Below, in pieces: positions 8,820-24,322 of a DNA stretch of 24,723 bases. Each line of letters opens with the position of its first letter. The stretch's first letter is position 1. The notes under the pieces were generated by a model. That model was not told the origin of the DNA and ran no database searches. It worked only from the letters and a program-made list of their open reading frames with translations. Source of the stretch: a virus. Location of the stretch: positions 1-24,723 of IMG/VR virus record IMGVR_UViG_3300009497_000040; one strand, written 5' to 3'. The translations under genes and the position numbers were made by a program.

Positions 8820-9725
8820 ATGGGATTAATTAATCAAACACAAAAGCTCTATTATGAAGGTGCAGACGGCAACTGGAACAGTGGAGACGAAAATTACGGT
8901 GATTACCAGTTTGTAAGCATTAAAGATATCATTAACAATTTCATCATCGCTTATGTTGGAGAAGATAAAATCATTAGCAAAATTAAGCGCACAGATGTTG
9001 CATTTCATGCTCAGCGTGCTTTACAAGAGCTTTCCTTCGATATATTACCCTCGGAAAAAGCTTTAGAAATTGAATTGGGGCCAGCGCTAGAAATGATTTT
9101 GCCACAAGACTACGTTAATTACGTTCGTTTTAGCTGGGCAGATGCAGGTGGTATAGAACACATTATATATCCTACACGCCATTCTAGTAACCCTAAAGCT
9201 ATTGTACAGGATTCTGATTACGAATATACGTTTGATGGAAGCGGTAATAAAATATATGCTGATAAATCAGAAACGTTAAAAAAATTCGAAGCGTCTAACC
9301 ACGAAGCTAATAACAAAGCGGAACTTAGCACTAGTGAACTCTTTAATCTTTACCGTCACGGTAGACGTTATGGCTTAAACCCTGAGTTTGCTCAAGGTAA
9401 TGGTGTGTTCTACATTGACAAGCTTAAAGGTATTGCACACTTTAGCTCTAGCTTGGTAAATAAAATTGTTACATTAAAGTACATCAGTGACAGCTTAGGA
9501 TCTGACGAAGAAATGCGAGTGCATAAGTTTGCAGAAGAAGCTGTTTACAAATATCTAGCTCATGCCATTCTGGCAACGAGAGCCAACACACAAGAATATT
9601 TAGTCGCGCGCTTTAAGAAAGAAGCGTTTGCAGCAAAAAGAGTTGCAAAACTCCGTATGTCTAACCTTAAGATTAGCGAGATTGCTCAAATCATGCGCAA
9701 CCAGGCTAAATGGATTAAACACTAA
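8820..9725 (+). CDS. P22 gp4-like head-tail adaptor (tail tubular/connector protein, putative)
   Basis: A 301-residue protein likely to form the first connector ring on the portal and close the head after packaging. An N-terminal helix bundle segment (FHAQRALQELSFDILPSEK, about 61-80) is followed by a beta turn region (ELGPALEMILPQDYVNYVRF), a pattern seen in gp4/tail-tubular-like adaptors of short-tailed phages. The C-terminal third is long, basic and helical (residues about 225-301, ending in NQAKWIKH), suitable for lining the portal. It begins right after the preceding stop (gct taa taa atg) and is followed, after one codon, by the nozzle gene. That gives a tight connector-connector-nozzle cassette in the order expected for podovirus tail assembly. 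Confidence 0.7.
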   Translation: MGLINQTQKLYYEGADGNWNSGDENYGDYQFVSIKDIINNFIIAYVGEDKIISKIKRTDVAFHAQRALQELSFDILPSEKALEIELGPALEMILPQDYVNYVRFSWADAGGIEHIIYPTRHSSNPKAIVQDSDYEYTFDGSGNKIYADKSETLKKFEASNHEANNKAELSTSELFNLYRHGRRYGLNPEFAQGNGVFYIDKLKGIAHFSSSLVNKIVTLKYISDSLGSDEEMRVHKFAEEAVYKYLAHAILATRANTQEYLVARFKKEAFAAKRVAKLRMSNLKISEIAQIMRNQAKWIKH

Positions 9726-9728
9726 TAC

Positions 9729-12700
9729 ATGCCAAAATTAGCACACAACTTTGTCCAGGGTAAGATGAACAAGGATCTCGATGAGAGACTTGTACCCAAT
9801 GGCCAATATCGTGACGCTCTAAACATTCAGGTTTCAACATCTGAAGGTTCTGACGTCGGCGCTGTTGAGAACATATTAGGTAATACTAAGCTAAACAAAA
9901 AGTCAGCTTCTGTTAATTGGGATGCAAACTTTGGTTTTACTTCTGCACAATGTATAGGTACAGCTAGAGATACTCAAAATAACAAGTTATACTGGTTTGT
10001 TACCTCAACTTCAGTTGATGCTATTTTAGAATACGATGAAGCAACTGGGTTTGTAGCGCCTGTACTGGTTGATACTGGTAGTGTATTAAACTTTAACACT
10101 AGCAATTTTATAACTGGTGTAAATGTTTTTGAAGGTTTATTATGTTGGACTGACAATTTAAACGAGCCTAGAAAAATATTAATATCAAGATTTAAAACTG
10201 GTAGCACACAAAGTGGAACGAGTATAAACACTCATACGCAGGTGTATAGCAGAAATTTTATTGCATCGGATATTACTGTAATAAAGAAAAAGCCAAACGA
10301 AAGATTACATTATACCGCTGCATCTTCTACAAGAACAGGTAATGGTGTTGGTATAAACAGAGTTACAACCCCTAAAAACTTTACAGAAACTTATAATGCT
10401 GTAAAAGTTCCAAGGGAAGTAGGCAGCTCTGTTTCTTTTGTAACTAGCTTAGCGCCAAATTGGCAGGCTAATGACATTATAACACTTACGGGTTTTGAGT
10501 TTAATAATGAAAGAAACCTTAATGATAAGTATCAGGTAAGAGTTAAAGTAACCAGCATTACTGGAGCGGCGTTAAAGAACGTAACAGGTACTATACTTTC
10601 TATATCTTCTGATATGCCTGATCTAGAGATAACTTGGGAGTGTGAACTGCAAGAAGACCCACCTATGTTTGAGTTTTCTTTCCCGCGCTTTGCATACCGC
10701 TGGAAGTACATTGACGGCGAGGTATCTGCTTTTTCACCGTGGACCAATGCAGTGTTCGTACCAGATACGTTTGAGTACGGTTCTTTCGATGCTTATAATG
10801 AAGGCATGCGTAACAACCTGCGTAAGCTTACTTTAAGCAACTTTGAAACACCACCTGCTGATGTAGACAAGCTTCAAATTTTATATAAAGATTCTTCAGA
10901 GAATATAATTTATAAAATAGAAGAAAAAGATGCATCTGTAACTAGTATTGCTATTACCTCAGAGGTTGTAACAAATGTTGTAGATTCTAATCAGATACTT
11001 AGACCTTACGATAATGTGCCAATAAAAGCTCTGGCACAAGAAGTTATTGGTAACCGTATTGTATATGGTAACTACGTACAACAATACGACATTATTGACG
11101 AAGTTGATTTAACGGTAGGGCTACAGTCTTCTGATATAACTGCGATTAAAACCCCTGAAGAAAGTGTTAAGTCTTTACGTGATTACCAAGTAGGTATTGT
11201 TTACGTAGATGAAAACGGTAGAGAAACTCCTGTGTTTACTAATAGTTCTGCAACTACCAAGATAGGTATAGATAAAGCTTCTAAGGTTAATAAAATAACA
11301 GTTGACTCTGGCCAAGATGCCCCTTCCTGGGCAACACACTTTAAATACTATGTAAAAGAAGTATCTAATGAATATTACAATGTTTCATTAGACCGCTACT
11401 ATGCAGATCCTGATGGCTTTATGTGGCTATCTATACCAAGTGCGGAAAGAAATAAGGTACAAGAGGGCGATTTCTTAATTTTGAAAAAGCAACACAATAC
11501 TGATACTCCAGTTGATGAGCCTACTAGATATAAGGTTATAGATATTAGCAATGAGGCACCTGATCCTATAAAAACAAAAAGAAAATTTAAAATTTCAGCG
11601 GGTGCAATCAAAGGGGCTAATGGTACTCCAATTGCTTCGGGTTTAAAAACTTTTACGTTTGAAGGCCCTGTTCCCAATGCGGGTAATGCTGAATTTGTTA
11701 GTTCGTTAAACCAAGATGTTTATGTTCGTTTTGTAAAGGGTGCTAATAAAACTGCTTTTTATGAAGTTGAAACCGCGGGCTATACAAATGACTCTCATAA
11801 TCATTATGAAGTAACTTTATACAAGAAACTATCAACTTATTCATGGCTTGATCTTTTAGGGTCTGGTGGTGAATACACTGTAGAGGTTCACGAAAGAAGA
11901 ACGGATAGATTACCTGAATATATAGGAAGATTCTTTGTTAAGATTGACAGAGACATGGCATTTGATGAAAACATAATTTACAATTTCACAAACAATCCGG
12001 GTGACTATGAGCAAGACGGTACAGCTAATCCAGGTGTACTAGTCGATACTATTTCGGACGATCCTGATTTAGACAATATATTTTTGGCAGAAGAAGGTTG
12101 GGACGAACATGCGAACGCCCAGCCTAGTGTAACTCTTTACGGCAAGCCTACTTTGAATTCTTACAACTTCGGTATAGTGCATGCTCCGTGGGATTCTCTT
12201 ACCCCTGTTGGCGGTTCAGGACTACAGTCGTTTAACAATAAAGCAGTTGCTGATGCGGTAGTACAATTTAGAGAAGGCAGTGGCTCATGGGGCGCTTTAT
12301 ACGAAATTGAAAGCGTTGCAAAAGGATCTTATGTAAGAGGGCAGGGCACCGGGGGTGTGACTCAGGGTAATGATGAAAACGGCTATTATTGGAACTTTGT
12401 ACTAAAAACAGCGTTTATTGACGATATAGACCCTGATCAAGTTAGAGTAGCGGTGAGAAAAAGAACACAACCAACAGTGTTCGATGAAGACAGCGACGTG
12501 CTGCCTACGGAAAACCCGGCTATATTTGAAGTTGAACCAAACCCAGCTGTTGATTTAGAATTATACTATGAAGCAACCGAAGCGTTACCAATTGCACAGC
12601 TTTCAACAGAGCAAACATTAGATTACTTCAATGTATACTCTTTTGGTAATGGTGTAGAGTCGGATAGAATTCGTGATGACTTTAATGCGAAGCGTATCGG

Positions 12701-14024
12701 AAAAGGGGTTAAGGTTTCTAGTGTAATAGAAAATGAGTACAAACAAGAACGCCGTAAGGCAGGTTTAATATACAGCGGTTTATTTAACAATACTAGTGGC
12801 TTAAATGAGCTTAACCAGTTTATTCAAGGTCTTAAAATAACAAAAGACTTGAACCCTATATATGGTGGCATACAAATTTTAAAGGCTAGAGATACTGACT
12901 TAGTGACTCTTTGTGAAGACAAATGCTTTAGAATACAAGCTAATAAAGATGCGTTATTTACAGCGGACGGTAACCCTAATGTTACATCTACAAATAATGT
13001 GCTTGGCCAAACAATGGCGTATGCTGGTGAATTTGGTATATCTAAAAATCCTGAATCGTTTACTACATATGGGTTCAGATCTTACTTTACAGATAAAGCA
13101 AGAGGCACGGTAATACGCCTATCAATGGACGGAATTACTGAAATCGCAGACAAAGGCATGTCAGATTACTTTGAAGACAAGTTTAAAGCACACACAGGGG
13201 CTATTTTAGGCTCATATGACGAAGCTTCGGGTTCTTATAATGTAAGTTTAAGCGGTGACGAATCCGTTGCGTTTAAAGAAGGCGTGAACGGTTGGACATC
13301 AAGATTGTCTTTTGTGCCTGAAGCGGCAATATCACTGAATAACGATTACTACACCATTAAAAATGGCGAGCTATGGATTCATTCTAACACAGCACGTTCT
13401 AATTTTTACGGTACTCAGAACAATTCTACAATCACGCCTATCATTAACGACGTTCCTTCTAGCATTAAAAACTTTAAAACATTATCTTACGAAGGCGATG
13501 CCGGGTGGGTAGCTGATGTGCTTACTGACCAGCAAGATGGGGAAGTAGAAGCATGGAAGACTAAAGAAAACCTACACTACAACTATATTAAAGGTAAGGC
13601 AACTACATTATCAAATATTGATACTGGAGAGTTTTCAGTGCAAGGATTAGGCAATCCTTCATCGGTTAATGACAATAGTATAGTAATTGGCGGTGTTCAA
13701 AATCAGGTATACGAGCTTACATTTGCGGAAGATTTAAATGTATCTTTACAAATAGGTGATGTAATATTTTTTACAGACGCTAGTGATGGTGATGCTTTAA
13801 AGGAACTAGGCAAAGTGCATTTAATAAATGGTAAGATAGTTACCGCTTTATGGGACGGGGCAAGTGATGAGCCTACTGCTTCAGACTTTGTACTGTTTGC
13901 TAAAGACTCAGAAAAGAACACATCAGGTATTATTGGGTACTATGCGGAAACTGTAATGAAAACAACTAGCTCAGATAAGAAAGAGCTCTTTGCTGTTAAC
14001 TCTGAGGTGTTTATCAGCAGCTAA
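9729..14024 (+). CDS. Tail nozzle / packaged-DNA stabilization protein (P22 gp10-like or crAss 'muzzle'-type, putative)
   Basis: At 1431 residues this is probably the protein that forms the end of the short tail and plugs the DNA channel. The opening (FVQGKMNKDLDERLVPNGQY, then SEGSDVGAVENILGN) is a strongly conserved signature of stabilization proteins in crAss-like and marine phages, as I recall them. Residues about 50-160 have propeller-like strands (NKLYWFVT, LLCWTDNLNEPRKI). A beta-sandwich-rich middle (about 300-950) holds Fn3-like patches such as RFAYRWKYIDGEVSAFS. A second conserved block at about 1110-1250 includes GFRSYFTDKARG and, at 1188, GWTSRLSFVPEAAISLNNDY. The last 150 residues are beta-rich and may bear host-contact surface. 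The gene follows the adaptor by one codon. A tail-fibre or receptor-binding role cannot be excluded for the C-terminus. Confidence 0.74.
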   Translation: MPKLAHNFVQGKMNKDLDERLVPNGQYRDALNIQVSTSEGSDVGAVENILGNTKLNKKSASVNWDANFGFTSAQCIGTARDTQNNKLYWFVTSTSVDAILEYDEATGFVAPVLVDTGSVLNFNTSNFITGVNVFEGLLCWTDNLNEPRKILISRFKTGSTQSGTSINTHTQVYSRNFIASDITVIKKKPNERLHYTAASSTRTGNGVGINRVTTPKNFTETYNAVKVPREVGSSVSFVTSLAPNWQANDIITLTGFEFNNERNLNDKYQVRVKVTSITGAALKNVTGTILSISSDMPDLEITWECELQEDPPMFEFSFPRFAYRWKYIDGEVSAFSPWTNAVFVPDTFEYGSFDAYNEGMRNNLRKLTLSNFETPPADVDKLQILYKDSSENIIYKIEEKDASVTSIAITSEVVTNVVDSNQILRPYDNVPIKALAQEVIGNRIVYGNYVQQYDIIDEVDLTVGLQSSDITAIKTPEESVKSLRDYQVGIVYVDENGRETPVFTNSSATTKIGIDKASKVNKITVDSGQDAPSWATHFKYYVKEVSNEYYNVSLDRYYADPDGFMWLSIPSAERNKVQEGDFLILKKQHNTDTPVDEPTRYKVIDISNEAPDPIKTKRKFKISAGAIKGANGTPIASGLKTFTFEGPVPNAGNAEFVSSLNQDVYVRFVKGANKTAFYEVETAGYTNDSHNHYEVTLYKKLSTYSWLDLLGSGGEYTVEVHERRTDRLPEYIGRFFVKIDRDMAFDENIIYNFTNNPGDYEQDGTANPGVLVDTISDDPDLDNIFLAEEGWDEHANAQPSVTLYGKPTLNSYNFGIVHAPWDSLTPVGGSGLQSFNNKAVADAVVQFREGSGSWGALYEIESVAKGSYVRGQGTGGVTQGNDENGYYWNFVLKTAFIDDIDPDQVRVAVRKRTQPTVFDEDSDVLPTENPAIFEVEPNPAVDLELYYEATEALPIAQLSTEQTLDYFNVYSFGNGVESDRIRDDFNAKRIGKGVKVSSVIENEYKQERRKAGLIYSGLFNNTSGLNELNQFIQGLKITKDLNPIYGGIQILKARDTDLVTLCEDKCFRIQANKDALFTADGNPNVTSTNNVLGQTMAYAGEFGISKNPESFTTYGFRSYFTDKARGTVIRLSMDGITEIADKGMSDYFEDKFKAHTGAILGSYDEASGSYNVSLSGDESVAFKEGVNGWTSRLSFVPEAAISLNNDYYTIKNGELWIHSNTARSNFYGTQNNSTITPIINDVPSSIKNFKTLSYEGDAGWVADVLTDQQDGEVEAWKTKENLHYNYIKGKATTLSNIDTGEFSVQGLGNPSSVNDNSIVIGGVQNQVYELTFAEDLNVSLQIGDVIFFTDASDGDALKELGKVHLINGKIVTALWDGASDEPTASDFVLFAKDSEKNTSGIIGYYAETVMKTTSSDKKELFAVNSEVFISS

Positions 14025-14062: not shown

Positions 14063-14722
14063 ATGGCTTTAATAGACAGCGTGATCCAAGGAGGCGTAGG
14101 AATTGCTTCCGGTATTATAGGTCATAAGCAAAGAAAGCAAGAGCAAAAAAATGCCCAAGCTCAGTTTGATCAGAACATGACAAGATACCAGTCCCAGGAT
14201 CTATCAAACCCATATGCTAATATGGAGAATGTTTATGAGGATTTAACCGTAAACACTCAAGCAGCCGACTTTGCAGCGCAGCAACAAGCTCAAGGTATGG
14301 CTAATACTATGCAAAGCATGAAAGGCGCTGCTGGCGGGAGTGGTATTGCTGCATTAGCACAAGCAATGGCCGGACAGCAATCACAGAATGCTCAAAGCGC
14401 TTCTGCTGATATAGCTAGACAAGAAGCGGGTAATCAAAAAGCACAAGCTCAAATGGCTGGTCAATTGCAATCTATGGAACGCGAAGGCGATATGATTTCA
14501 AGATCTTTAGAAAGAGAGCAATCAGAAACTGAATTAGGAATGAGCCAGCAAAGACTTGGCGCCGCTAACTTAGCACGTCAAGAAGCTACACAAGCTCTCG
14601 TGGGTGGCGTTGGTCAAATCGCTGCTGCTGGTCTTAAAGCAAATCCTGCTTTTGCTGCTGGAGGCGCTATGGCAGCAGGTGGTGAAGGAGTTGCCGGTTT
14701 TGTAGGCAATTTGTTTAAATAA
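14063..14722 (+). CDS. Small internal virion / ejection protein (putative, T7 gp14-like in character)
   Basis: A 219-residue protein rich in Gln, Ala, Gly and Met. It starts with a short apolar glycine-rich segment (VIQGGVGIASGIIGH, 7-21), then has a long Q/A helical middle (about 28-175) with a Gly break (KGAAGGSGIAALAQAMAG). It closes with an apolar Gly/Ala stretch (VGGVGQIAAAGLKANPAFAAGG). Amphipathic or membrane-active ends on a helical body fit a protein that leaves the particle and enters the host envelope, as T7 gp14 does. It is first of three genes between nozzle and lysin, the place where ejection proteins sit in several podoviruses. No catalytic motif is present. A tail-assembly chaperone is the main alternative. 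Confidence 0.6.
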   Translation: MALIDSVIQGGVGIASGIIGHKQRKQEQKNAQAQFDQNMTRYQSQDLSNPYANMENVYEDLTVNTQAADFAAQQQAQGMANTMQSMKGAAGGSGIAALAQAMAGQQSQNAQSASADIARQEAGNQKAQAQMAGQLQSMEREGDMISRSLEREQSETELGMSQQRLGAANLARQEATQALVGGVGQIAAAGLKANPAFAAGGAMAAGGEGVAGFVGNLFK

Positions 14723-14726
14723 TATT

Positions 14727-15872
14727 ATGGCAAATAGTGATTTAATAAAAGGTGCTGGCTTCGTAGGCAAATCTGAAGGCTTTGTAAATTATGCAGAGGC
14801 TATTAATGTACCCAACCCAGTACAGGGTGAAAACTTCTACATAAAAGAAAGAGAACGTAAGCAGGCTACAAAGTCGCGAGTAAACGGGTATATAGATAAC
14901 CTTAAGTCTGACATTGACTTAGACGGGCTTAGCCCAGAACAGACATCGGCAATGCGAGGCTTTTTAGTTTCGCAACGTTCTATATATGCTAATGCTGCAA
15001 ACGAGATTGCTAAGATTGACGATGCTTCATCACCTGAGTACCAACATTACGTTGATATAATGAACGGCGTGAACCGTAGCTTTGTTAATTTGTCTGAAGA
15101 AGTAAAGGCTTATAAAGAGGCTAAAGTAAGCTATGCTGAAACTCACAAAGCTGATCTTTACTCTAATGCGGCAAGCGGCAGTGAAATACAAGCTGCAGCA
15201 TCGCTTTACGGCTTAGACCCTGAAGTGCCTGCAAATTTTACTGTAGCAGACGGTGGTCATATAATGTTTGAGGTTGACGGTGTAGCTCAGTCTTATAAAG
15301 ATTATAAAGAGCCTATGATGAAAGACTATAAAACAATGAATAGTCTTTTGGAAACTACAAATCAAATTTTCAACACTGGTCAAAAGCTTGACGGAACTAA
15401 AGCACAGCTTTTAGGCACACAGGTTGAAGCTATGCTTGCAAACCCTGATACTATAAAATCTATATTAGCGGGGGACTTTGCGGGTAACGGTATTGATTTA
15501 AGCGGGATTGCTTACAATCCTGAAGATGTAGCTGGTACGCGTATGCAGGTTAAAGACGCTATAATGGGTGCTTTAACACAAGTTGCTAATGAAGGTTATG
15601 CTGAAAAAGAAAGAAAGCGTAAAAAAAGAAACAATCCAAGTAGCACCCCATCAAGCCCAAAAGGTGGTAAAGACTACGCTGAAAGATGGGCTGACGTAGA
15701 TAAATATCCGCAAACACCTCAAAAGATTAGTGGTAAAGTAGTGCAAAAAGTTGATGTCCGATTTGCTCCCGAAGATAAAAAGGAAATGATTAGCCAATTA
15801 CAGGGCGACCATTATTATATTGATGGTGTTATTTACACTCTTGAAGAAGCAAAAGACATTTTAGATAACTAA
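14727..15872 (+). CDS. Second candidate internal virion / ejection protein, function unknown
   Basis: No family recognised. The 381 residues are largely helical. The N-terminus (to about 45) contains GAGFVGKSEGFVNY; a charged helical body runs to about 290 (KSRVNGYIDNLKSDIDLDG, AKIDDASSPEYQHYVDIMNG). A very basic, flexible linker sits at about 293-315 (KERKRKKRNNPSSTPSS), and a small C-terminal alpha/beta piece follows (QLQGDHYYIDGVIYTLEEAK). The basic linker may bind DNA or tether two domains. It starts four bases after the previous stop and ends 17 bases before the giant gene, so it belongs with both. By position it is the middle of an ejection-protein trio comparable to T7 gp14-gp15-gp16. 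That comparison is inference from order and composition only. Confidence 0.6.
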   Translation: MANSDLIKGAGFVGKSEGFVNYAEAINVPNPVQGENFYIKERERKQATKSRVNGYIDNLKSDIDLDGLSPEQTSAMRGFLVSQRSIYANAANEIAKIDDASSPEYQHYVDIMNGVNRSFVNLSEEVKAYKEAKVSYAETHKADLYSNAASGSEIQAAASLYGLDPEVPANFTVADGGHIMFEVDGVAQSYKDYKEPMMKDYKTMNSLLETTNQIFNTGQKLDGTKAQLLGTQVEAMLANPDTIKSILAGDFAGNGIDLSGIAYNPEDVAGTRMQVKDAIMGALTQVANEGYAEKERKRKKRNNPSSTPSSPKGGKDYAERWADVDKYPQTPQKISGKVVQKVDVRFAPEDKKEMISQLQGDHYYIDGVIYTLEEAKDILDN

Positions 15873-15889
15873 TAATCCAATTATATAAT

Positions 15890-18800
15890 ATGGATCTTAA
15901 CAAATTTAGCCCTGAAAAATTGCAAGAAATTGCTAACCGCAATGGCATAACAGTTGAAGAGCTATTAGCAAATAATACTGAGGGAAAGCAGAACGACTTG
16001 ATGGAAACAGACCCACCAACAAGTCAGAATACAGAAACGTCCGCTGGGGAATCCAGATCGGGCGATATTTCTTTGGGGTCACCAAACTTTGAGCCTTATC
16101 TTTTAACACTTGAAGATTTAGAGGGTGAAGAAGAAGACGTAGAGCCACGCATAAAAGATAAAATGCAAGCGCTAGGCATTAGAACCGACCAAACTGGCTG
16201 GGGAAATACTATTATGTTGCAAAGCCAATCTATAGATGGGCAAGGGCATCGTGTTAGAACTTCGGCAAAATTAAAGGATAAACAAAAAGCGCTTGAGCAA
16301 TTAAACACGTTTATTTTAGAGCAAGGTGACCTTGGCTACGCTGATAAAATTAAAGCAGAAAACCAAGATGTTATTAATAAATACTATGAAGCTACTGCTG
16401 AAAAAGAAGTTGGTCTTAGCGAAGCTAATGACATTTATGTAGATTCAAAAATAAATAGTTGGAATAAAGCGGAAACTATATCTACCCCTAGAATGGATGG
16501 TAGCAGTATGTTTGTGGCCAACCAAAAAAGAACTCTTGAGGCAAAAGATTTTGAAACGCCAGAAGAGCTCGATGAGTATTTAAACTGGAAAGAAACCGGT
16601 GTAGTTAATACTACAGAAGATCAGATCAAGTCGTTTAGAGAAGAGCTGATATTTAATAATAAGATAAGAAGCGGACAAAAATATATTGATAACCTTCCAG
16701 ACGACGTAAAAGAGTCTGTGGCGGCTGTACTTTCAAAAGAAAAAGTGGATTTAGCTTATAGAGCTAATAACATAGAAAATGAGATTGGCCAAATTCAAAT
16801 GGCTGAAAACGATCTTGCTTATAGAATAGAAGAATTTAAAAACAATCCTACTAATCAGCAGGATTTATTTAATTTACAAGAAGAAATCCTTTCACTACAA
16901 AATCAAAGATCTGAGGTAGCCTCATTTATTGAAACTATATCAGATACTGATGATTTAATGATTGCAGTAGATAACTTTAATAAAGACTATAGCTTGCTTA
17001 ATAAGCTAGGCGTAGACTTTAAAAGAACTGCTGTAGATTTAGGTTATGCCGGTGCACAGTTAATTACACTTTTAGGTACAGGTGTAGCCAAAGGAGTAGA
17101 ATTTGCTGATGATGAGGTAATGGACGAGCTAGATGCAGCGTGGTTGCCCCTAATTGAAAGAGGCCAAAAAGAAAGTCAGTTATTTGCTACAGCACCTACT
17201 TTAGAGCAAGTAGAAGACTTAGATGACTTATTTGATTGGGTAGGTAGCACAGCGATCGGAGCGATACCTTCTTTATCTATGGCCTTTGCCGGACCAGCAG
17301 CAATGCCTTTATTCTTTCTTAGTGGCTATGGTGGTACATCTAGTGAAATAATGATGAACCAGTATGAAGCTACAAAAAGGTTAGCTACAAATGCTGAGAT
17401 ATTAGAGAATCAAAGGGTTAACATGTCTCCTGAAGAAATTTCAGAGATTGAAACTTTAATGGAGGAAGATGCTAAAATAGCAAATTTGCCCCAGTGGAGA
17501 AAGATTACAACATCAGCGTGGGCCGGTATGTCCGAAGTGCTTTTTGAAAGACTTGGTACTATGGCTATTCTTAAAAATGCGTCAAAAGCCATTAACCCGA
17601 CAAGCTTAACTGGAGCGGGAATAAAATTTGCAAAAGCTTCTAACCAAGAAGGTATGTCAGAGGGTGCAACCCAAATTTCTAACAATTTTGGAAAATGGGC
17701 CTTTATGGGCGAACAAGTTAACTTATTCGAAGGATTAGGTGAAGCTTATGCGGGTGGTGCTCTTATAGGCGGTCCTTTATCTTTAAAAAGTGTAGCCCCT
17801 GCGGTTTACGAGTATGCGGTAAGTACTCTTATGGATAAAAACACTCGTGCAGATATCCAAGCTAAGCTTAATCAATTAGAAGAGTTAACTGGTATAGACA
17901 ACTTACAGAACGTATTAGATCCTAATACTGATTTAGAAGGGCTATCCCCAGAAGTAAAAAAGCTAGCTACTGAAGTAATTGGTGAAATTGAATTGTTAAA
18001 ATCAGGTATTGCAAACAGATTGGGTAACGATTTATCTAATGACGTTGTAATAGAGGTTGGCCGTATTTCTTTAGAAATGCAGCAGATAAACGAAAGGTTT
18101 ACAAAAATTGCTCAATCAGGTGTGGCTGGTGCCGAATTAGTTGCGGCAGAAAAAACATTAAGAGCTAAGTTTGATAAACTTGCAGATAAGCGGGAAGCAT
18201 TGCTTTCATATGAGACTAATACAAAAGAGGCTAAAGCTTACAACGCTTCTTTAAAGGCATCGATGGATGCGTCAGCAGGTTACGCGTCTATGCTTTATTT
18301 ACAGAACGCTAGAAAACAATCTGAAAGCTTTAGAGAATTTAATAGACTAAAAAATTCGGCACGAAGCAAGTACTTATCACAAGCAAAAGAAAACCTTGGG
18401 GAAAATGCTACTAGTGAAGAAATAAGATTAGAAGCTGGAAAGTCTTTTCATATTGAAAAAACCAAAAATCTTATTAGCGAAAATAAGATTACTGCAGACG
18501 AACTTTTAAAAGCAAGCGGATTAGAAGTTGAACTTATAGAAGCTAATGAGGCTGAATTTATAAAGCGTGGCGGTAACAAAGATGGGGATGCATTTATTAG
18601 CGCTGATGGTAAAACAATTGTAGTTAATATGGATGTTGCTGCGGCAAACGGTCGTACAGGAGTATGGGCGCATGAAGCACTTCACGCTATTGTTCAAGAC
18701 AAACTTGGTAGTAACAAAGACGCAAACGCTGCGGGAGAAGAATTATTAGGTTGGCTACAAAAAAATGCACCCGAAACTCATTCTTACGTTAAAGCTAGGC

Positions 18801-21800
18801 TTGATTTAGCTTACACTAGAGATGGTGTAAAAGCTGACGCATATTACGAGGAAACAATGAATGTGCTTTCTGATTACATTGCGGAAGGCAACGAAATAGG
18901 GCTAAAGTCTTTATCACAAATCAACGTATTTGTAAACAACCTTGTTCGGGGAGACAAAACTTCAATTAAAATACAGGACGGCGAACAAACATTTGCATTT
19001 ATAGCCAATTACGCTAATAAAAATAAGTCAAAGAAAACTGCTAAGCTTATTAGAAATTTTGCTAGAGCATTTCAAAATGAAGAAAGAAAAAGCAAAAAAG
19101 ACTCACAGTCTATATCTAAAGAAGCAGAACGTGCAAAGCAGGTTTTAGAAAAAGTAAGTTCCAATATGGAATTCTTTGATCCTAACTCTCCTTTAATTGC
19201 AAAAGTAATTGATGGCATGGTTCAGGCGCAGTTGGCTAAGCTATCTATAAAAGGATTAAAGTTTGATGCGGAAGAAGCTAAGTACGATATTATTGCCAGA
19301 ATATACTACAACCAAGACATAAACAAGTTTGACGGTAGAGGTACGCTGTATGGTTATATAAATGGTCGTATTAGTTTCCGCATTAAAGACATGCTTAAGG
19401 CTTCTGGTGAGGGGAAAAACGATATTGTTGACGATTTTAACCAGAGCGACGTAGAGGACCTTAAAGGAGCTGCGGCTGATGTTACCACTATAGAACAAGT
19501 AGAAGAGCGTGTGGAAGCCGAAAGAGCCACGTATCGCCCTTTATTAGATAGTCGTATGGCTACGCCAGAGTTGGTTGAGGCTTTAATGGAAAAAATACCA
19601 AGAGTTGTAGGCACACTTAAAAATCGTATTGACGCACCGATTTCAAAAAACACAACTGTTACACCTTTAATGAACGAATTACGTTTAGCATTGGGTAAGC
19701 AGGTGGACATTGATTTGAAAAAAGCAATGGGTGGCAAGAAAGACGGGGTGCTAAGAAAATTTTTAGTAGCTAACAAAAAAGCTATTCTTGAAAACATGAC
19801 CACTACTTATTTGATGACAGCTTTTCCCGCTGCCATTCAAAAGAAAGTTAATGGCGTATTTACAAGCGATTGGAAAGGTAAAAAAATTGATCGCGAAACT
19901 ACAAATACGGATAAAGCAGGTAGAACATCAGGAGCTGAAATAGCAAGAAGACTACCTCAAGCTTCATTAAAAATAGATGACAAAACATTCTTGTCATTTA
20001 TTCTTGACGAAAAAGGTAATCCATTACGTGGTAAAAAAGAGTCTCTTGCCAAAGCTATTGGCGAAGAAATGGCTATTGAAATTGTTAACCGTGAAATGCA
20101 AGATCCGGATAGCAAAATACGCCAGGCTTTAGAAGCTAACCAAGAAAGATTAGGTGTAGAGCAAATAAATGATTTTGCTACTAAGTTAGCTCTTGATTCT
20201 GAGCGCGGTAATGTTAAAGCTTCTAATAGCTTTACAATAGAAGAAACACGTCAAGAAGATGTAATTAAAGCTTTGCGTGTTGGTGTTAAGTATTGGAGCG
20301 GTCAAGACGATGCAAAAGCTATGTCCGCGTTAGAAGACCCCAACAATAAGGGCAATTTTAAGCCAGAAGTAATTGAATATTTACAAAAAGATGCTTTAAA
20401 AAAGAAAACTAAAACAACTAAAATAGTTGATATATCAAATGTTGATTTTTCAAAATTATTTTATACTCTTTCTAAAGCTGAAGATGCGGGGCTGCTTGAT
20501 GAATATTCTAGCGGGCCTCAAATTGCACGTTTAATTACAGAATCAGACCTTTTTGACGGCGAACTTAAATATACTTCTATAGAAACGCTTGTAAAAAAAG
20601 CTGAAAGTGGTGATGCCGATGCCATACTTGAACTACAAGCCCACAATACGGAAACGTTATCTCTTGTTTCTTTATTTAATGCTGAAGAAATTAAAAAATT
20701 TGGAGGAGTAGAATTTTTTAGTAGCACTAAAGATCAAATAATTAATTTACGAAAAGAAATTAATGAAAGCAAGATAGGAAGCACAATTACTAATATTATT
20801 GAAGATGCTAGTCCTTATCATTCAGAAGCATCATCTATAGCAGAATCAATTCGTGTTTATCAAAAAAGTAAAAAAGGAATACCAAAAAATTTAGAAGGCG
20901 AAGAGGTATTTAAAATGAGGCTAAGCATTGTGCAGCGTACCAACATTGCAAATAAAGCATTAGTAACTGCTATAGCTGAAAGAATGGTTTTAGCGGTTCA
21001 GTATGAACTAGTATCTCCCGTCACACTTTTAAGGATCTTGCAAAAGCAAAATAAATCACAAACTAAGGGGTTCAGGGCATTTGGTCAATTAATATATGCT
21101 TCTTTAAATATAGAGGGTACACCAAAAATTGAGCACGTTTATCCCAATGTTCAGTTATCTTTTGATATTATTAAAATTGCTATTGAGGCTAGAAATGCTA
21201 GGATTGCGTCAAATATTGATCCTAATATTATAACATTAAAAGTTACTCAAGAGCTAAATAAGTTATTTCAAAAAAATACATTGTGGGCTACAGATCAAAA
21301 AGTTACTGATTTTGTTGATACCACAGGTACTTCAAATCCAATAGGTATTTTAAGAGCAATTACCTTGGCTAAAGCGGATAGAAAAAATATTGTTGCTTTC
21401 GTAAGCGAAAATAATAAACTGCAAACGCTTGAGGATCATATTAATAATGAACAGCAGCGAGCAATATATGAGCAGCAAATTGACATTAACTACGAAAATG
21501 CTCAAAGAGCTAAAGATTTATTAAACCAGTCTGTTAAAAATTCATCAAGCGTTCCAATTGCCGTGTTTATGGTCGGGGCTCCTGGTGCGGGAAAATCCAG
21601 CGTTTTAAAAGGTTTAGGCTTAACTGATAAAGGATACAGATTAGTTAACCAAGACCCTTACTTAGAAGGATACATTAAAGAGGCCGGGCTACCAACCGAC
21701 GAAAAAACTTATGACAAGGAGCAGCGTTCTTTACGGGCTAAGCTAGGTTGGAAAGCTAGAAAAGCCGCTGAAGAAGATTTAGCTAGGAATACTGCCGCAA

Positions 21801-24322
21801 AAGAAAGTATGGTAGTCGATGGCACCGGCGCATCATATAAAGCTACAACGAAAAAAATGAAAGCTTTAGAAGATGCAGGGTTTGAAATACATATGGTGCA
21901 TGTTAAAACTAGTAAAAATGTAGCTGTTGACAGAAATAAAAGTAGAACAGAAAGATCATTAGCTGACTTTATAGTAACCAAAACTTGGGATAGCGTACAA
22001 GAAAGCGCTAAGCAGTATAAGGAAGACTATGCAGGTCGCTTTTACGAGATTAATACTGACAATCTTTCTTACGGTGAAGCTTTACCTGAAGCATTTGTAA
22101 ATCAAGTAACTACTGGGCTGGAAGCATCCGGCGCTAAGTTTAGCCAAGGGCTAAGTGAAGAGCTTAACGGAATGATTGAGCGGACTAAAGGAGTGGCTGC
22201 TGACAAGATTTATTCAAAAGCTCAAGCTCGTATGATGGGTGAGAGAAAAGGTAAATACCGCTTGTTTGTGCCGGCATCAGCTGAAGACTTTAGAGGCTTA
22301 ACCTCATACACCTTTGCAGGAAAAGGGAAGCAAGGGGAAGCTGATCAAAAGTTTATTGAAGATAATATAATAACTCCTTATACTAGGGGTATTGCAATGA
22401 TTGAAGCTGTAAAGCAGCAGATTCGTCGCGAACTTAATGCCTTAAGAAAGGCAGATAAAAAGTTGTTTAAAATGCTAGGTAAGAAAATTGCAAATAGCGA
22501 TTACACTTATGACCATGCATTAAGGGTGTACATGTGGACCCAGCAAGGTATAGATATACCGGGAATGGATAAAAACGACATTAGATTTTTGATCAACGCT
22601 ATTAATGCAATGCCACAGTTTATTGAAATGGGTAATGCGATGCAGCTTATATCTAGACAAGATACATGGATGGAGCCGGGTGAGCATTGGTTATCTCGCA
22701 CTTTAGTTTCCGATTTGAACGGAATGACTGAAAAAGTTGGTAGAAAGAAATATTTACAAGAATTTATTGAAAACTCTGAAGCAATATTTAGTGCTGAAAA
22801 CTTAAACAAAATAGAAGCCGTTTACGGAACGCGACATAAAGAAGCTATAAAAGATGCTTTATTTGCAATGACTAACGGTACTAACCGCACAACAGGCAGT
22901 GATAATGCACAGGTGAATGCTTGGTATAACTGGGTGAACAACTCTACTGGTGCTATTATGTTCTTTAACCGTCGGTCTGCAATATTACAAACTCTTTCAA
23001 CCGCTAACTTTATAAACTGGTCAGACAACAATCCTTTAAAAGTTGCGGCGGCCTTTGCAAATCAACCTCAATATTGGTCTGACTTTGCAATGATATTTAA
23101 TTCTGACAAGTTAAAAGAACGTAGATCGGGATTACAAACAGATGTAAACCAGGCGGAAATTGCTAATGAAGCAAAAGGTGCAAAAAATAGAGCGGGTGCT
23201 GTGATTGCTTACTTGCTAAAAATTGGTTTTACACCTACTCAAATTGCGGATAGTTTTGCTATTGCAGCTGGGGGTGCGTCGTTTTATAGAAATCGCGTAA
23301 ATACTTACGTTAAAGAAGGTATGGAGCAGGCGGCCGCAGAAAAGCAAGCATTTGAAGACTTTAGCAAAACCGCGGACGAAGCACAGCAATCTTCTGACCC
23401 ATATTTGGTTTCTCAAGAGCAACGTAGTCCTTTAGGTCGTCTTGTATTAGCATTCCAGAATACTCCGATGCAGTATACTCGATTGATGAAAAAAGCGATG
23501 AAAGATCTTGCTAATGGTAGAGGCGATGCTAAAACACATATATCTAAGATTATTTATTATGGTGCAGTGCAGAACTTTATATTCTCTGCATTACAAAGCG
23601 CATTGTTTGCTATCATACCTGGATTTGACGAAGAAGACGAGTCTGAAATGACAGAAAAAGAGCTAGAAAAGCTTGAACGTAAAAATGACCAAAGAACCTT
23701 GCGTATTATTAATAGCATGACAGATTCTGTTTTAAAAGGTAGCGGGGTTAGAGGCGCAGTAATTGCAACGCTTAAAAATACTATTACAGAGTATTTTAAA
23801 CAAGAAGAAAAAGGATTTATGTCCGACCACACCTACACTATACTACAAGCGTTAAGTTTGTCTCCACCTATTGGTTCAAAAGCTAGAAAACTTTATTCAG
23901 CTATTCAAACCAAAAAGTTTGAAAGAGATACTTTAGCAGCCAGAGGTTTTGATGTTATGGCTGACGGTAAGTTAAATTTAAGTCCAGCTTATTCTATTAT
24001 AGGTAACCTTTCATCTGCACTCGGAAATGTACCGCTTGATCGTATTGTTGATGAGCTTAACTCAATAGTCGAAGCACTCGATTCTCGCAACACAACTTGG
24101 CAACGTATAGCATTAGCACTTGGCTGGAAGACTTGGGACGTAGGCGCTAAAAATGAAGAGCACGATCTTATTAAGACTGAAGCTAAAGCAAAACGAAAAG
24201 AGGAAGGTAAAGTTAAAGCTAAAGAAACTCGGGCTACAAATGCAAAAAAGAAAGAATCAGAAAAAATAGATAAGGCTCTTGAGAATTACTATATCAGATA
24301 TCCTGAACGTAGGCCTAAATAA
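15890..24322 (+). CDS. Giant multidomain virion ('polyvalent') protein with metallopeptidase, sigma-2-like and P-loop kinase segments
   Basis: A 2810-residue protein, about a third of the window, probably packaged and ejected. From the N-terminus: acidic disordered start with helical repeats; apolar segments near 383-405, 452-480 and 610-640, interleaved with EGMSEGATQISNNFG, a pattern I associate with phage polyvalent proteins; HEALH at 928-932 with E987-E988 (zinc-peptidase-like); a stretch resembling sigma region 2 at 1101-1169 (INKFDGRGTLYGYINGRI); a long A/T-rich helical section (about 1500-1885); a P-loop kinase domain at about 1888-2065 (GAPGAGKS 1896-1903, D1922, VDGTG around 1977, DRNKSR); conserved blocks FVPASAEDFRGLTSYTF and, at about 2350, NSTGAIMFFNRRSAILQTLS; a membrane-like helix at about 2550-2580; and a Lys/Glu tail. 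No transglycosylase or RNA-polymerase motif was found. The reading frame is unbroken. A virion location is inferred. Confidence 0.8.
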   Translation: MDLNKFSPEKLQEIANRNGITVEELLANNTEGKQNDLMETDPPTSQNTETSAGESRSGDISLGSPNFEPYLLTLEDLEGEEEDVEPRIKDKMQALGIRTDQTGWGNTIMLQSQSIDGQGHRVRTSAKLKDKQKALEQLNTFILEQGDLGYADKIKAENQDVINKYYEATAEKEVGLSEANDIYVDSKINSWNKAETISTPRMDGSSMFVANQKRTLEAKDFETPEELDEYLNWKETGVVNTTEDQIKSFREELIFNNKIRSGQKYIDNLPDDVKESVAAVLSKEKVDLAYRANNIENEIGQIQMAENDLAYRIEEFKNNPTNQQDLFNLQEEILSLQNQRSEVASFIETISDTDDLMIAVDNFNKDYSLLNKLGVDFKRTAVDLGYAGAQLITLLGTGVAKGVEFADDEVMDELDAAWLPLIERGQKESQLFATAPTLEQVEDLDDLFDWVGSTAIGAIPSLSMAFAGPAAMPLFFLSGYGGTSSEIMMNQYEATKRLATNAEILENQRVNMSPEEISEIETLMEEDAKIANLPQWRKITTSAWAGMSEVLFERLGTMAILKNASKAINPTSLTGAGIKFAKASNQEGMSEGATQISNNFGKWAFMGEQVNLFEGLGEAYAGGALIGGPLSLKSVAPAVYEYAVSTLMDKNTRADIQAKLNQLEELTGIDNLQNVLDPNTDLEGLSPEVKKLATEVIGEIELLKSGIANRLGNDLSNDVVIEVGRISLEMQQINERFTKIAQSGVAGAELVAAEKTLRAKFDKLADKREALLSYETNTKEAKAYNASLKASMDASAGYASMLYLQNARKQSESFREFNRLKNSARSKYLSQAKENLGENATSEEIRLEAGKSFHIEKTKNLISENKITADELLKASGLEVELIEANEAEFIKRGGNKDGDAFISADGKTIVVNMDVAAANGRTGVWAHEALHAIVQDKLGSNKDANAAGEELLGWLQKNAPETHSYVKARLDLAYTRDGVKADAYYEETMNVLSDYIAEGNEIGLKSLSQINVFVNNLVRGDKTSIKIQDGEQTFAFIANYANKNKSKKTAKLIRNFARAFQNEERKSKKDSQSISKEAERAKQVLEKVSSNMEFFDPNSPLIAKVIDGMVQAQLAKLSIKGLKFDAEEAKYDIIARIYYNQDINKFDGRGTLYGYINGRISFRIKDMLKASGEGKNDIVDDFNQSDVEDLKGAAADVTTIEQVEERVEAERATYRPLLDSRMATPELVEALMEKIPRVVGTLKNRIDAPISKNTTVTPLMNELRLALGKQVDIDLKKAMGGKKDGVLRKFLVANKKAILENMTTTYLMTAFPAAIQKKVNGVFTSDWKGKKIDRETTNTDKAGRTSGAEIARRLPQASLKIDDKTFLSFILDEKGNPLRGKKESLAKAIGEEMAIEIVNREMQDPDSKIRQALEANQERLGVEQINDFATKLALDSERGNVKASNSFTIEETRQEDVIKALRVGVKYWSGQDDAKAMSALEDPNNKGNFKPEVIEYLQKDALKKKTKTTKIVDISNVDFSKLFYTLSKAEDAGLLDEYSSGPQIARLITESDLFDGELKYTSIETLVKKAESGDADAILELQAHNTETLSLVSLFNAEEIKKFGGVEFFSSTKDQIINLRKEINESKIGSTITNIIEDASPYHSEASSIAESIRVYQKSKKGIPKNLEGEEVFKMRLSIVQRTNIANKALVTAIAERMVLAVQYELVSPVTLLRILQKQNKSQTKGFRAFGQLIYASLNIEGTPKIEHVYPNVQLSFDIIKIAIEARNARIASNIDPNIITLKVTQELNKLFQKNTLWATDQKVTDFVDTTGTSNPIGILRAITLAKADRKNIVAFVSENNKLQTLEDHINNEQQRAIYEQQIDINYENAQRAKDLLNQSVKNSSSVPIAVFMVGAPGAGKSSVLKGLGLTDKGYRLVNQDPYLEGYIKEAGLPTDEKTYDKEQRSLRAKLGWKARKAAEEDLARNTAAKESMVVDGTGASYKATTKKMKALEDAGFEIHMVHVKTSKNVAVDRNKSRTERSLADFIVTKTWDSVQESAKQYKEDYAGRFYEINTDNLSYGEALPEAFVNQVTTGLEASGAKFSQGLSEELNGMIERTKGVAADKIYSKAQARMMGERKGKYRLFVPASAEDFRGLTSYTFAGKGKQGEADQKFIEDNIITPYTRGIAMIEAVKQQIRRELNALRKADKKLFKMLGKKIANSDYTYDHALRVYMWTQQGIDIPGMDKNDIRFLINAINAMPQFIEMGNAMQLISRQDTWMEPGEHWLSRTLVSDLNGMTEKVGRKKYLQEFIENSEAIFSAENLNKIEAVYGTRHKEAIKDALFAMTNGTNRTTGSDNAQVNAWYNWVNNSTGAIMFFNRRSAILQTLSTANFINWSDNNPLKVAAAFANQPQYWSDFAMIFNSDKLKERRSGLQTDVNQAEIANEAKGAKNRAGAVIAYLLKIGFTPTQIADSFAIAAGGASFYRNRVNTYVKEGMEQAAAEKQAFEDFSKTADEAQQSSDPYLVSQEQRSPLGRLVLAFQNTPMQYTRLMKKAMKDLANGRGDAKTHISKIIYYGAVQNFIFSALQSALFAIIPGFDEEDESEMTEKELEKLERKNDQRTLRIINSMTDSVLKGSGVRGAVIATLKNTITEYFKQEEKGFMSDHTYTILQALSLSPPIGSKARKLYSAIQTKKFERDTLAARGFDVMADGKLNLSPAYSIIGNLSSALGNVPLDRIVDELNSIVEALDSRNTTWQRIALALGWKTWDVGAKNEEHDLIKTEAKAKRKEEGKVKAKETRATNAKKKESEKIDKALENYYIRYPERRPK
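18557..18892 (+). other. Zinc metallopeptidase-like domain within the giant protein
   Basis: Residues about 890-1001. Strands (AEFIKRGG, DAFISADGKTIVVNMD) lead into VWAHEALHAIVQD; H928, E929 and H932 match the HExxH zinc motif. E987/E988 in YYEETMNVLSDYIAE, 55 residues on, is the likely third ligand of a gluzincin-type site. The arrangement resembles peptidase domains of phage polyvalent proteins. Activity is not shown. Confidence 0.62.
19190..19396 (+). other. Sigma-factor region-2-like segment within the giant protein
   Basis: Residues 1101-1169. The run from PLIAKVIDGMVQAQLAK through FDAEEAKYDIIARIYYN to KFDGRGTLYGYINGRISFRI and KDML follows the ECF sigma region 2 layout: an A-E-D/E acidic helix, an aromatic-rich helix, F-D-G-R-G/S, then Y-I-x-x-R-I-x-x-x-I-K-D-x-L. 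A region 4 helix-turn-helix is not evident afterwards. Resemblance is by eye. Confidence 0.4.
21551..22084 (+). other. P-loop kinase domain (zeta-toxin / AAA_33-like) within the giant protein
   Basis: Residues about 1888-2065. A beta strand PIAVFMV runs into Walker A GAPGAGKS (1896-1903; K1902). N1920-Q1921-D1922 follows strand two, as the acidic residue does in small-molecule and nucleotide kinases of this class. MVVDGTGAS (D1977) is the third-strand motif, and DRNKSRTERS supplies lid arginines. The domain looks complete. Substrate is unknown: a UDP-sugar, as for zeta toxins, or a polynucleotide end are both possible. Confidence 0.72.

Follow-up and report, generated by a model that had tools for sequence, protein, structure and literature searches.

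The record IMGVR_UViG_3300009497_000040 of IMG/VR, hereafter the window, is a stretch of 24,723 nucleotides from a virus, which is a complete record entry by itself (24.7 kb). At 15890-24322, it carries one uninterrupted open reading frame (ORF) that starts with ATG and encodes a giant protein of 2810 amino acids (aa), as a preliminary description of this DNA had stated. Here, we compare the giant with its relatives. It is composed of modules that are exchanged between relatives, and the joints between these modules carry short words that match one another within a protein and vary together between proteins. These matched, co-varying junction words are new and were not part of the preliminary description. 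The window and the giant have the following features.

9729-14024, plus strand: muzzle (tail-end) protein, 1431 aa, matching crAss_MUZ (3e-13) and crAss_MUZ_C (1.8e-8)
14063-14722, plus strand: 219-aa protein, first of a trio, weakly homologous to phi38:1 gp99, elemo gp20 and Panino gp72
14727-15872, plus strand: 381-aa protein, second of the trio, with no family match
15890-24322, plus strand: giant ORF, 2810 aa, third and largest of the trio after the muzzle gene
15890-16087, plus strand: N-terminal leader, aa 1-66, conserved in a close relative
17210-17809, plus strand: N-domain (NT), aa 441-640, with a Gly/Ala-rich apolar stretch, common to the giants of elemo, phi38:1, Panino and phi18:3
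18518-19024, plus strand: zincin-like metallopeptidase module (MP), aa 877-1045
18671-18685, plus strand: HExxH motif (HEALH), aa 928-932
19097-19111, plus strand: junction word 1, KDSQS, aa 1070-1074, ahead of MID
19106-20224, plus strand: MID module, aa 1073-1445, with a possibly sigma-2-like front of about 105 aa and a conserved remainder with no fold match
19133-19450, plus strand: suggestive sigma-region-2-like stretch, aa 1082-1187, from structural re-ranking
20216-20230, plus strand: junction word 2, KASNS, aa 1443-1447, at the MID end
20225-21541, plus strand: diverged region, aa 1446-1884, without Pfam or PHROG match
21536-21550, plus strand: junction word 3, KNSSS, aa 1883-1887, ahead of the kinase
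21542-22087, plus strand: predicted P-loop kinase module (KIN), aa 1885-2066, Pnkp/zeta-like by Pfam and profile
21575-21598, plus strand: Walker A motif, GAPGAGKS, aa 1896-1903
22136-22150, plus strand: junction word 4, KFSQG, aa 2083-2087, at the C-domain start
22127-24259, plus strand: C-domain (CT), aa 2080-2790, all-helical in its model, with a predicted shape like that of pieces of polyvalent phage proteins
24360-24723, plus strand: amidase gene, truncated by the window end

The genes upstream match the PHROG families of the large terminase, the portal and virion structural proteins. A longer contig, L002, has a 100% copy of the giant, and the gene that follows it there is an amidase (Pfam Amidase_2, 4e-13). 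The order muzzle, 219-aa protein, 381-aa protein, giant and amidase agrees with the earlier placement of the giant as the last of a trio between a tail nozzle and a lysin.

A search with the C-domain gave 54 loci. Of these, 53 were combined with the window and five named phages and reduced to 48 non-redundant proteins, and the 43 that come from the window or from metagenomes were used for module and word counts (first set). Further scans, from which up to 80 loci each were taken, and two loci from metagenome-assembled genomes brought at least 158 loci, which after removal of redundancy and of short ORFs left 86 proteins (second set). The C-domain is present in all 129 proteins of the two sets by selection. 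A giant encoded on the contig L003 has 55% identity to that of the window over the best segment. The two are alike at aa 1-65 (81%), about 1077-1440 (83%) and 1881-2810 (81% in the C-part), while the other stretches differ, including about 1000 aa after the leader. Because the likeness is confined to separate stretches, the giants can be said to exchange modules with sharp edges. The comparison of domain order among related phages, which had been proposed as a check of the preliminary description, thus gave exchangeable modules, with the slot of the kinase often occupied by a HAD phosphatase (HAD) instead. The fast-changing region of aa 1446-1884 contains KIEHVYP, which resembles the RxEHxxP of the consensus of our alignment A3 and has no family match.

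The word [VI]K[FY]S occurs 54 times in the 43 first-set proteins, compared with a mean of 6.6 and a maximum of 15 in 200 shuffles. Its looser form [VIAT]K[FYW]S was sought within 15 aa of module edges. In the first set it lies at 19 of 30 MID ends, 22 of 43 CT starts, 8 of 21 HAD starts and 5 of 9 KIN starts; it is found at none of seven other edge types and at 164 of 8600 random positions. The single word is rarer in the second set (49 copies, shuffle mean 13.65, maximum 27), in which the looser form marks 20 of 86 CT starts, 6 of 27 MID ends, 6 of 83 HAD starts, 3 of 83 HAD ends, 1 of 77 MP starts, none of 6 KIN starts, no other edge and 145 of 17200 random positions. We therefore abandoned one fixed word [VI]K[FY]S as the junction motif, as the second set shows that the word varies and yet matches within a protein. 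For example, L058 has IKESKG, VKESKG and VKESKG, L147 has KKYRSA and KKYRSK, and L029 and L099 have KSSIAP and KLSENP, respectively, twice each. The junction word was not in the top 15 when repeated reduced tetramers were counted without bias, and a search of 45 proteins over their whole length for further copies of the words was noisy (104 compared with 79.5 in controls). The window's giant contains four copies of K.S[QNS][SG] in its 2810 aa, one at each of the joints at aa 1070, 1443, 1883 and 2083, compared with a mean of 0.37 after shuffling.

To measure the matching, the highest-scoring stretch of 6 residues shared by two joints was determined within each protein and compared with that for joints of different proteins in 5000 permutations. 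For the MID end and the CT start (n=57), the score was 20.07 within and 14.95 between proteins, with a z of 11.9, and no permutation out of 5000 reached it. The same count of 0/5000 was obtained for HAD start and CT start (n=87, z 10.9) and for MID end and HAD start (n=27, z 4.4). Matching persisted when K[FYW]S was excluded on both sides (n=26, z 9.0; n=50, z 6.5; n=12, z 3.7, in the same order of pairs). For MID end and CT start it was found in each set separately (n=30, z 7.5; n=27, z 8.7) and after thinning by MID similarity (n=37, z 10.2), although the permutation test ignores kinship and thinning repairs this only in part. Shuffling of residues inside the windows of comparison abolished it (z of -0.6 to 1.0 in six runs), and nine of 12 control pairings had z values of -1.0 to 1.3. 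Three words within our structural models start in stretches with a predicted local distance difference test score (pLDDT) below 50, two of them at the ends of modelled pieces, where such scores are to be expected in any case.

The junction words look as if an injected polyprotein were cut at them, and we describe them as putative cleavage sites. Several results weigh against this. The remaining three controls were raised (MID start with CT start, z 4.2; HAD start shifted by 40, z 2.8; MP start, z 2.7), from which it follows that kinship or unmarked junctions contribute something; the MID start partly carries the word itself (with MID end, n=54, z 5.9) and hence is not a clean control. The pairing of MID start with HAD start was not significant (n=27, 416/5000), nor were the KIN-start words as a set (n=15 and n=8). 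A protein's own partner took or shared first place in only 18 of 57 cases, and was among the top five in 32 of 57. The window's pattern K.S[QNS][SG] was chosen after inspection of the joints, and relaxing it to K.S.[SG] adds a fifth copy at 809; the window's words are degenerate (K-x-S-x-[SG]), so that 47 of the other 56 CT starts outscore its own as a match for its MID end. In a partial Mantel test, the word was correlated with the peptidase given CT (r 0.166, p 0.002, n=57). However, given both CT and peptidase, MID (r 0.230) and HAD (r 0.179) did at least as well, and the peptidase lost significance when MID or HAD was added (p 0.086 and 0.067). As these tests do not single out the peptidase, the idea that it specifically drives the word was dropped.

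These results also bear on a rival explanation, in which the giant is an ejection protein that functions without being cut, as do T7 gp16 and N4 vRNAP, and the words are docking segments, flexible linkers or marks of exchange. The sharp edges of the exchanged modules agree with it, since repeats at joints could be exchange marks, and so do the Mantel tests, which do not tie the words to the peptidase alone. Moreover, N4 vRNAP is packaged unprocessed despite its metallopeptidase, according to the available text of PMC5512222. Exchange marks, however, predict shared codons, and of the 200 residues that are identical across 45 word pairs, 110 share their codon, compared with 98.9 expected from codon usage. 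Recent copying of the words as DNA was rejected for want of a clear codon excess, which suggests that selection acts on the protein. Furthermore, the words vary in concert at several non-homologous joints, which suggests a common reader at the protein level, a docking partner being one such possible reader. We regard an uncut giant as rather unlikely, although the case of N4 vRNAP makes it a rival to be taken seriously.

The MP module is firmly predicted to be a metallopeptidase. HExxH is present in 30 of 30 first-set MP modules, in all 39 first-set proteins of at least 2364 aa including that of the window (30 of one family and 9 of another), and in all 81 second-set proteins that reach 2000 aa and have a closed 5' end. 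The first-set proteins without it are four ORFs of 1072-1689 aa, three of which run off the contig start, while the fourth, L059, starts within MID. In our alignment A7, the motif and a downstream Glu are kept in at least 90% of the sequences (H73, E74, H77 and E133, corresponding to aa 928, 929, 932 and 988). This conservation in both sets bears out the HExxH peptidase of the preliminary description. A different HExxH family, mostly of the form TVxLHExxHxxxDA, replaces the usual MP in L031, L032, L041, L045, L046, L049, L051, L055 and L066. A model of aa 856-1445, made from 32 sequences, has a mean pLDDT of 73.7 and a predicted template modelling score (pTM) of 0.43. It is mixed alpha/beta over the peptidase and so departs there from the single continuous helical fold that had been named earlier as evidence to the contrary; the C-domain model is all helical. 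In structural re-ranking with VIA, chains of lethal factor and Certhrax, whose matched domains we take to be zincin-like, aligned over MP at Z 4.1-4.5, a weak support for the fold. Foldseek returned no match for the model in the PDB at E<=0.001, and the best match of an MP+MID profile to PDB sequences (E 1.1) was taken as chance.

The MID module had been described as sigma-2-like. In the VIA re-ranking, in which 952 chains were aligned, the top two were sigmaE (6jbq_F; Z 7.2, root mean square deviation 4.7, 91 residues aligned) and sigma70 (6pss_L; Z 6.1, deviation 2.7, 86 residues aligned), both within aa 1082-1187 and over a stretch of the sigma factors that is presumably region 2. In addition, the MID of one relative matches a late-sigma PHROG family (0.0021 over 29 aa), and a profile of seven sigma factors aligned its region 2 to the expected stretch of MID, although poorly (P 0.032). 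The likeness of the MID front to sigma region 2 is therefore suggestive. An account in which the front is an ordinary helical domain unrelated to sigma factors stands about level with it: MID of the window matches no Pfam family at E<=10, the model has no Foldseek match, the profile result is weak, helical domains can attain a VIA Z of about 7 by chance, and the phage already has a normal sigma factor gene. The first places of two sigma factors among 952 chains, over what we assume to be region 2, and the late-sigma match are less expected under that account. Other VIA matches of the model (terpene synthases, exportins and cyclins) were put down to widespread helical arrangements; that a family is missing from the VIA lists carries no evidential weight. 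A search of 10 records for Sigma-70 region 2 (PF04542) gave two matches, both in other ORFs (251 and 253 aa) and none in the giants. The separate, ordinary sigma factor of 251 aa is encoded at L002:27517-28272 on the minus strand (Sigma70_r2 2.2e-5, 24.6 bits with a cut-off of 24). The records behind L016 and L020 likewise encode a separate sigma factor.

The KIN module (aa 1885-2066) matches Pfam AAA_33 (3e-12, 47.5 bits) and Zeta_toxin (3.6e-9, 36.8 bits, cut-off 22.3), both above their cut-offs, and the protein P0002 matches Zeta_toxin at 3.2e-13. Nine sequences of the module share invariant G12, G15, G17, K18, D38, R131, R135 and R138, among which we assume the catalytic Asp and the Arg residues of the lid. 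Its identity as a P-loop kinase, proposed in the preliminary description, is thus a firm prediction. When a profile of these nine sequences was compared with the PDB, 4gp7, which we take to be the kinase domain of Clostridium thermocellum Pnkp, came first together with three other sequences of that protein (8.6e-5 to 1.2e-4), followed by zeta toxin (0.001), adenylate kinases (0.0011 and 0.0012) and T4 Pnk (0.008). KIN therefore appears nearest to Pnkp-type kinases, by a small lead.

Among the 129 proteins, 15 have KIN, 96 have a HAD phosphatase without KIN and 18 have neither at the coverage cut-off, a class that includes partial HAD matches such as that of L024. All three HAD motifs sought are kept in 87 of the 96. 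One HAD module matches phrog_415, 'polynucleotide kinase' (5.5e-8); the best match of a HAD profile to PDB sequences (E 0.68) was taken as chance. In 8 of the 15 proteins with KIN, the kinase is nested in a HAD module, after the DxDx[TS] motif, and in the other 7, which form the clade of the window, it stands alone. The nested loci are L032 (9023-9568 within 8885-10090), L061, L111, L143, L104, L127, L092 and L172. We did not meet this nesting in the literature found, which comprised open-licence papers in the parts available. In the accessible portion of a survey of jumbo phages (PMC7824862), a HAD phosphatase family that is usually fused to an N-terminal polynucleotide kinase is placed among RNA-repair enzymes. 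Because the KIN profile is nearest to Pnkp and a HAD phosphatase occupies the same slot or surrounds KIN, the ends of nucleic acids are its likely target, and RNA-end repair, as a predicted activity, is favoured over the attack on host metabolism that had been suggested earlier. Alternatively, KIN could act on a small molecule, as a zeta-toxin-like UDP-N-acetylglucosamine kinase, a nucleotide kinase or another enzyme, and harm the cell wall or metabolism. The Zeta_toxin matches of the window and of P0002, the scores of the adenylate kinases and a relative in BFVD that is named UDP-N-acetylglucosamine kinase are consistent with such a role. Pnkp, however, outranks zeta toxin (8.6e-5 compared with 0.001, a narrow difference), and the HAD module in which 8 of the 15 kinases are nested matches the 'polynucleotide kinase' family. 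We find a small-molecule substrate doubtful.

The model of CT, based on 37 sequences, is all but wholly helical (pLDDT 65.8, pTM 0.44). In BFVD, its matches were headed by four close relatives, followed by pieces of phage proteins, of which several are named polyvalent, including a piece from Cellulophaga phage phi19:3 (8.8e-4). Matches to solved structures were weak: the PhiM1 ejectosome chain 8vb2_A was second with Z 5.7 and the T7 gp15-gp16 chain 6yt5_A had Z 3.9, rows that rank below and among unrelated transporters. The transporter matches (MATE and XPR1) were taken as common helical arrangements, and the best match of a CT profile to PDB sequences (E 0.3) as chance. Comparison by hhalign of single C-terminal sequences of the five named phages with CT gave no match. 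The membrane segments at both ends of the giant, as previously described, did not hold up. There are three marginal apolar stretches, none of them terminal and one in the middle of the protein, with best 19-residue Kyte-Doolittle means of 1.50, 1.48 and 1.49 at aa 459-477, 1699-1717 and 2558-2576, respectively.

Searches with the portal and capsid led to phages of Flavobacterium (elemo), Cellulophaga (Pervagoviridae and Pachyviridae) and Maribacter (Panino), to two Tenacibaculum records (portal) and to one environmental genome. A giant ORF lies at the corresponding place in 7 of 7 relatives examined, downstream of a long structural gene and a few smaller genes. It has 3694 aa in elemoF, 1829 in Panino, 1691 in phi38:1, 1935 in phi18:3 and 3859 in MW202828; in Calle_1, it spans the record start, and in phi46:3 its place is taken by two ORFs. 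In that Cellulophaga phage (L011), the ORFs at 22439-26758 and 27078-28958 are separated by a gap of about 320 bases, unlike in phi18:3. An N-domain profile (aa 441-640), for which only sequences of the window and of metagenomic relatives were used, found the giants of elemo (1.6e-19), phi38:1 (8.6e-18), Panino (8.3e-9) and phi18:3 (3.3e-8), with a best reversed or shuffled decoy of 0.0035; MW202828 was not among the eight best matches. The elemo giant also matches the MP profile (5.8e-12). For MID, KIN, HAD and CT, the giants of named phages showed no homology above decoys among the eight best matches per test. In a set of 17 proteins, the 219-aa protein matched phi38:1 gp99 (1.2e-6), elemo gp20 (3.8e-4) and Panino gp72 (5.4e-4), and phi18:3 gp120 only at 0.014, while the 381-aa protein had no homologue among the neighbours in named phages (best E 0.022).

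The phi18:3 record annotates its positional giant from experimental tandem mass spectrometry. From position and N-domain homology, we infer that the window's protein is in the virion as well. The C-terminus of the 381-aa protein (window 15813-15869, YYIDGVIYTLEEAKDILDN) is similar to the N-termini of some relatives' giants, but a docking motif common to both was considered and rejected; of 114 own pairs, only 3 outscored every one of 60 random windows. The phage is marine and probably a podovirus with a crAss-like muzzle and a host among Bacteroidota. The hosts of its cultured relatives are Flavobacteriia, and of the two loci with a C-domain from metagenome-assembled genomes, one is in a Crocinitomicaceae record and one in a Maricaulis record. 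The crAss-type muzzle protein (9729-14024) thus occurs in a phage whose nearest cultured relatives are phages of Cellulophaga, Flavobacterium and Maribacter. GroEL and GroES genes are annotated in relatives (L004, L005 and L006), with GroES directly before the terminase in Panino and elemoF.

The ORF, the gene order, the peptidase motif, the predicted kinase, the exchange of modules and the matched words of the family can be read from the sequences, and on them we propose the following mechanism. A delivery frame, made of the N-domain with its Gly/Ala-rich stretch and the 710-aa helical C-domain, would carry exchangeable cargo, namely the zincin metallopeptidase, MID with its possibly sigma-2-like front and the Pnkp-like kinase, which a HAD phosphatase replaces or encloses in relatives. 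The giant would be stored in the particle with its two neighbours and would leave through the tail before the DNA or together with it. The modules would be set free by cutting at the words, either inside the particle or once in the cell, with the giant's own HExxH enzyme as the probable protease. RNA ends left by nucleases of host defence would then be repaired by the kinase or the phosphatase, and the sigma-like part may act on the host RNA polymerase. In general terms, it seems somewhat more probable than its contrary that the giant is a third ejection protein of polyvalent type, cut into modules at the words, with RNA-end repair and a sigma-like part as cargo. The strict form of this proposal has a little less than an even chance: a true injected polyprotein of tailed phages with self-matching, co-evolving words, cut probably by its own metallopeptidase so that a sigma-like effector of RNA polymerase and enzymes of RNA-end repair (kinase, phosphatase or the former nested in the latter) are released at entry. 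The injected polyvalent effector of the preliminary description is thereby partly retained. The position, the metallopeptidase, the exchangeable modules and the phi18:3 counterpart with its homologous N-domain agree with it, whereas the sigma part is suggestive and the effect on metabolism is not favoured. Beyond the words themselves, some module-level results also count on the other side. The sigma likeness of MID comes without a Pfam or Foldseek match (E<=0.001), and its VIA Z is within reach of chance for a helical domain. Adenylate kinases score level with zeta toxin in the KIN search. The CT model has middling confidence. Of 11 records searched for LPD38 (PF18857) at E<=10, 10 gave no match, the window among them, and Panino matched below cut-off (1.8e-5). 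Finally, the mass spectrometry annotation is that of the phi18:3 giant.

If the exchange of kinase and phosphatase means that RNA-end repair is delivered before phage gene expression, these modules would be an answer, at the stage of entry, to host defences that cut RNA. The junction words name exact candidate cleavage sites for such proteins. No account of junction words in polyvalent or ejection proteins was found in the titles and opening lines of abstracts listed for open-licence papers, so that one may be in print elsewhere.

The giant can be compared with several known systems. The T7 ejectosome, gp14-gp15-gp16, is a trio of internal proteins of rising size. The window has a trio that likewise rises in size, and CT weakly resembles the ejectosome chains 8vb2_A (Z 5.7) and 6yt5_A (Z 3.9). 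Its third protein differs from gp16 in being far larger and carrying cargo; the giant (P0001) had no match among PDB sequences at E<=0.1, those of the T7 type included, and Pfam at E<=1 gave no lysozyme or lytic transglycosylase domain in it. The kinase-phosphatases of the Pnkp type, T4 Pnk and bacterial Pnkp, share with the giants the KIN profile match and, in relatives, the HAD partner; in 8 relatives, however, the kinase lies within HAD and not before it, and that of the window stands alone. The giants of elemo, Panino, phi38:1 and phi18:3 share the place and the N-domain, and that of elemo also MP, but homology to MID, KIN, HAD or CT did not rise above decoys among the eight best matches. 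In the crassvirus phi-crAss001, the virion keeps cargo proteins in the head and tail, for which an early exit through the tail has been proposed in the text available (PMC10172136). A homologue of its muzzle protein is encoded close to the giant here. The virion-stored cargo described in that text is phi-crAss001's own and consists of presumed channel proteins (gp45 and gp46) and RNA-polymerase-related giants, whereas a peptidase, a sigma-like part and a kinase would be the cargo here. The closest comparison is with polyvalent proteins, which are presented in the available parts of Iyer et al. 2017 (PMC5512222) as late-gene polypeptides with many unrelated domains, the zincin metallopeptidase being the commonest, and are presumed to be injected with the DNA. 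Release of the units by the metallopeptidase is proposed there; DdrB of phage P1 is processed and N4 vRNAP is packed uncut. The giant differs in lacking a Pfam LPD38 match, and neither its domain order nor matched junction words appear in that text as available, in which 'linker' is absent and 'cleavage site' occurs in the references only. It shares with polyvalent proteins several unrelated domains in one chain, of which the peptidase and the kinase are recognized by motif, profile and conservation, the HExxH with its downstream Glu, and a location among late genes next to those of the virion. Its architecture and genomic setting place the giant with the polyvalent phage proteins, and the matched, co-varying words of this large phage family lend support at the level of sequence to the idea of processing by a metallopeptidase that was put forward in 2017 (PMC5512222, in the parts available).

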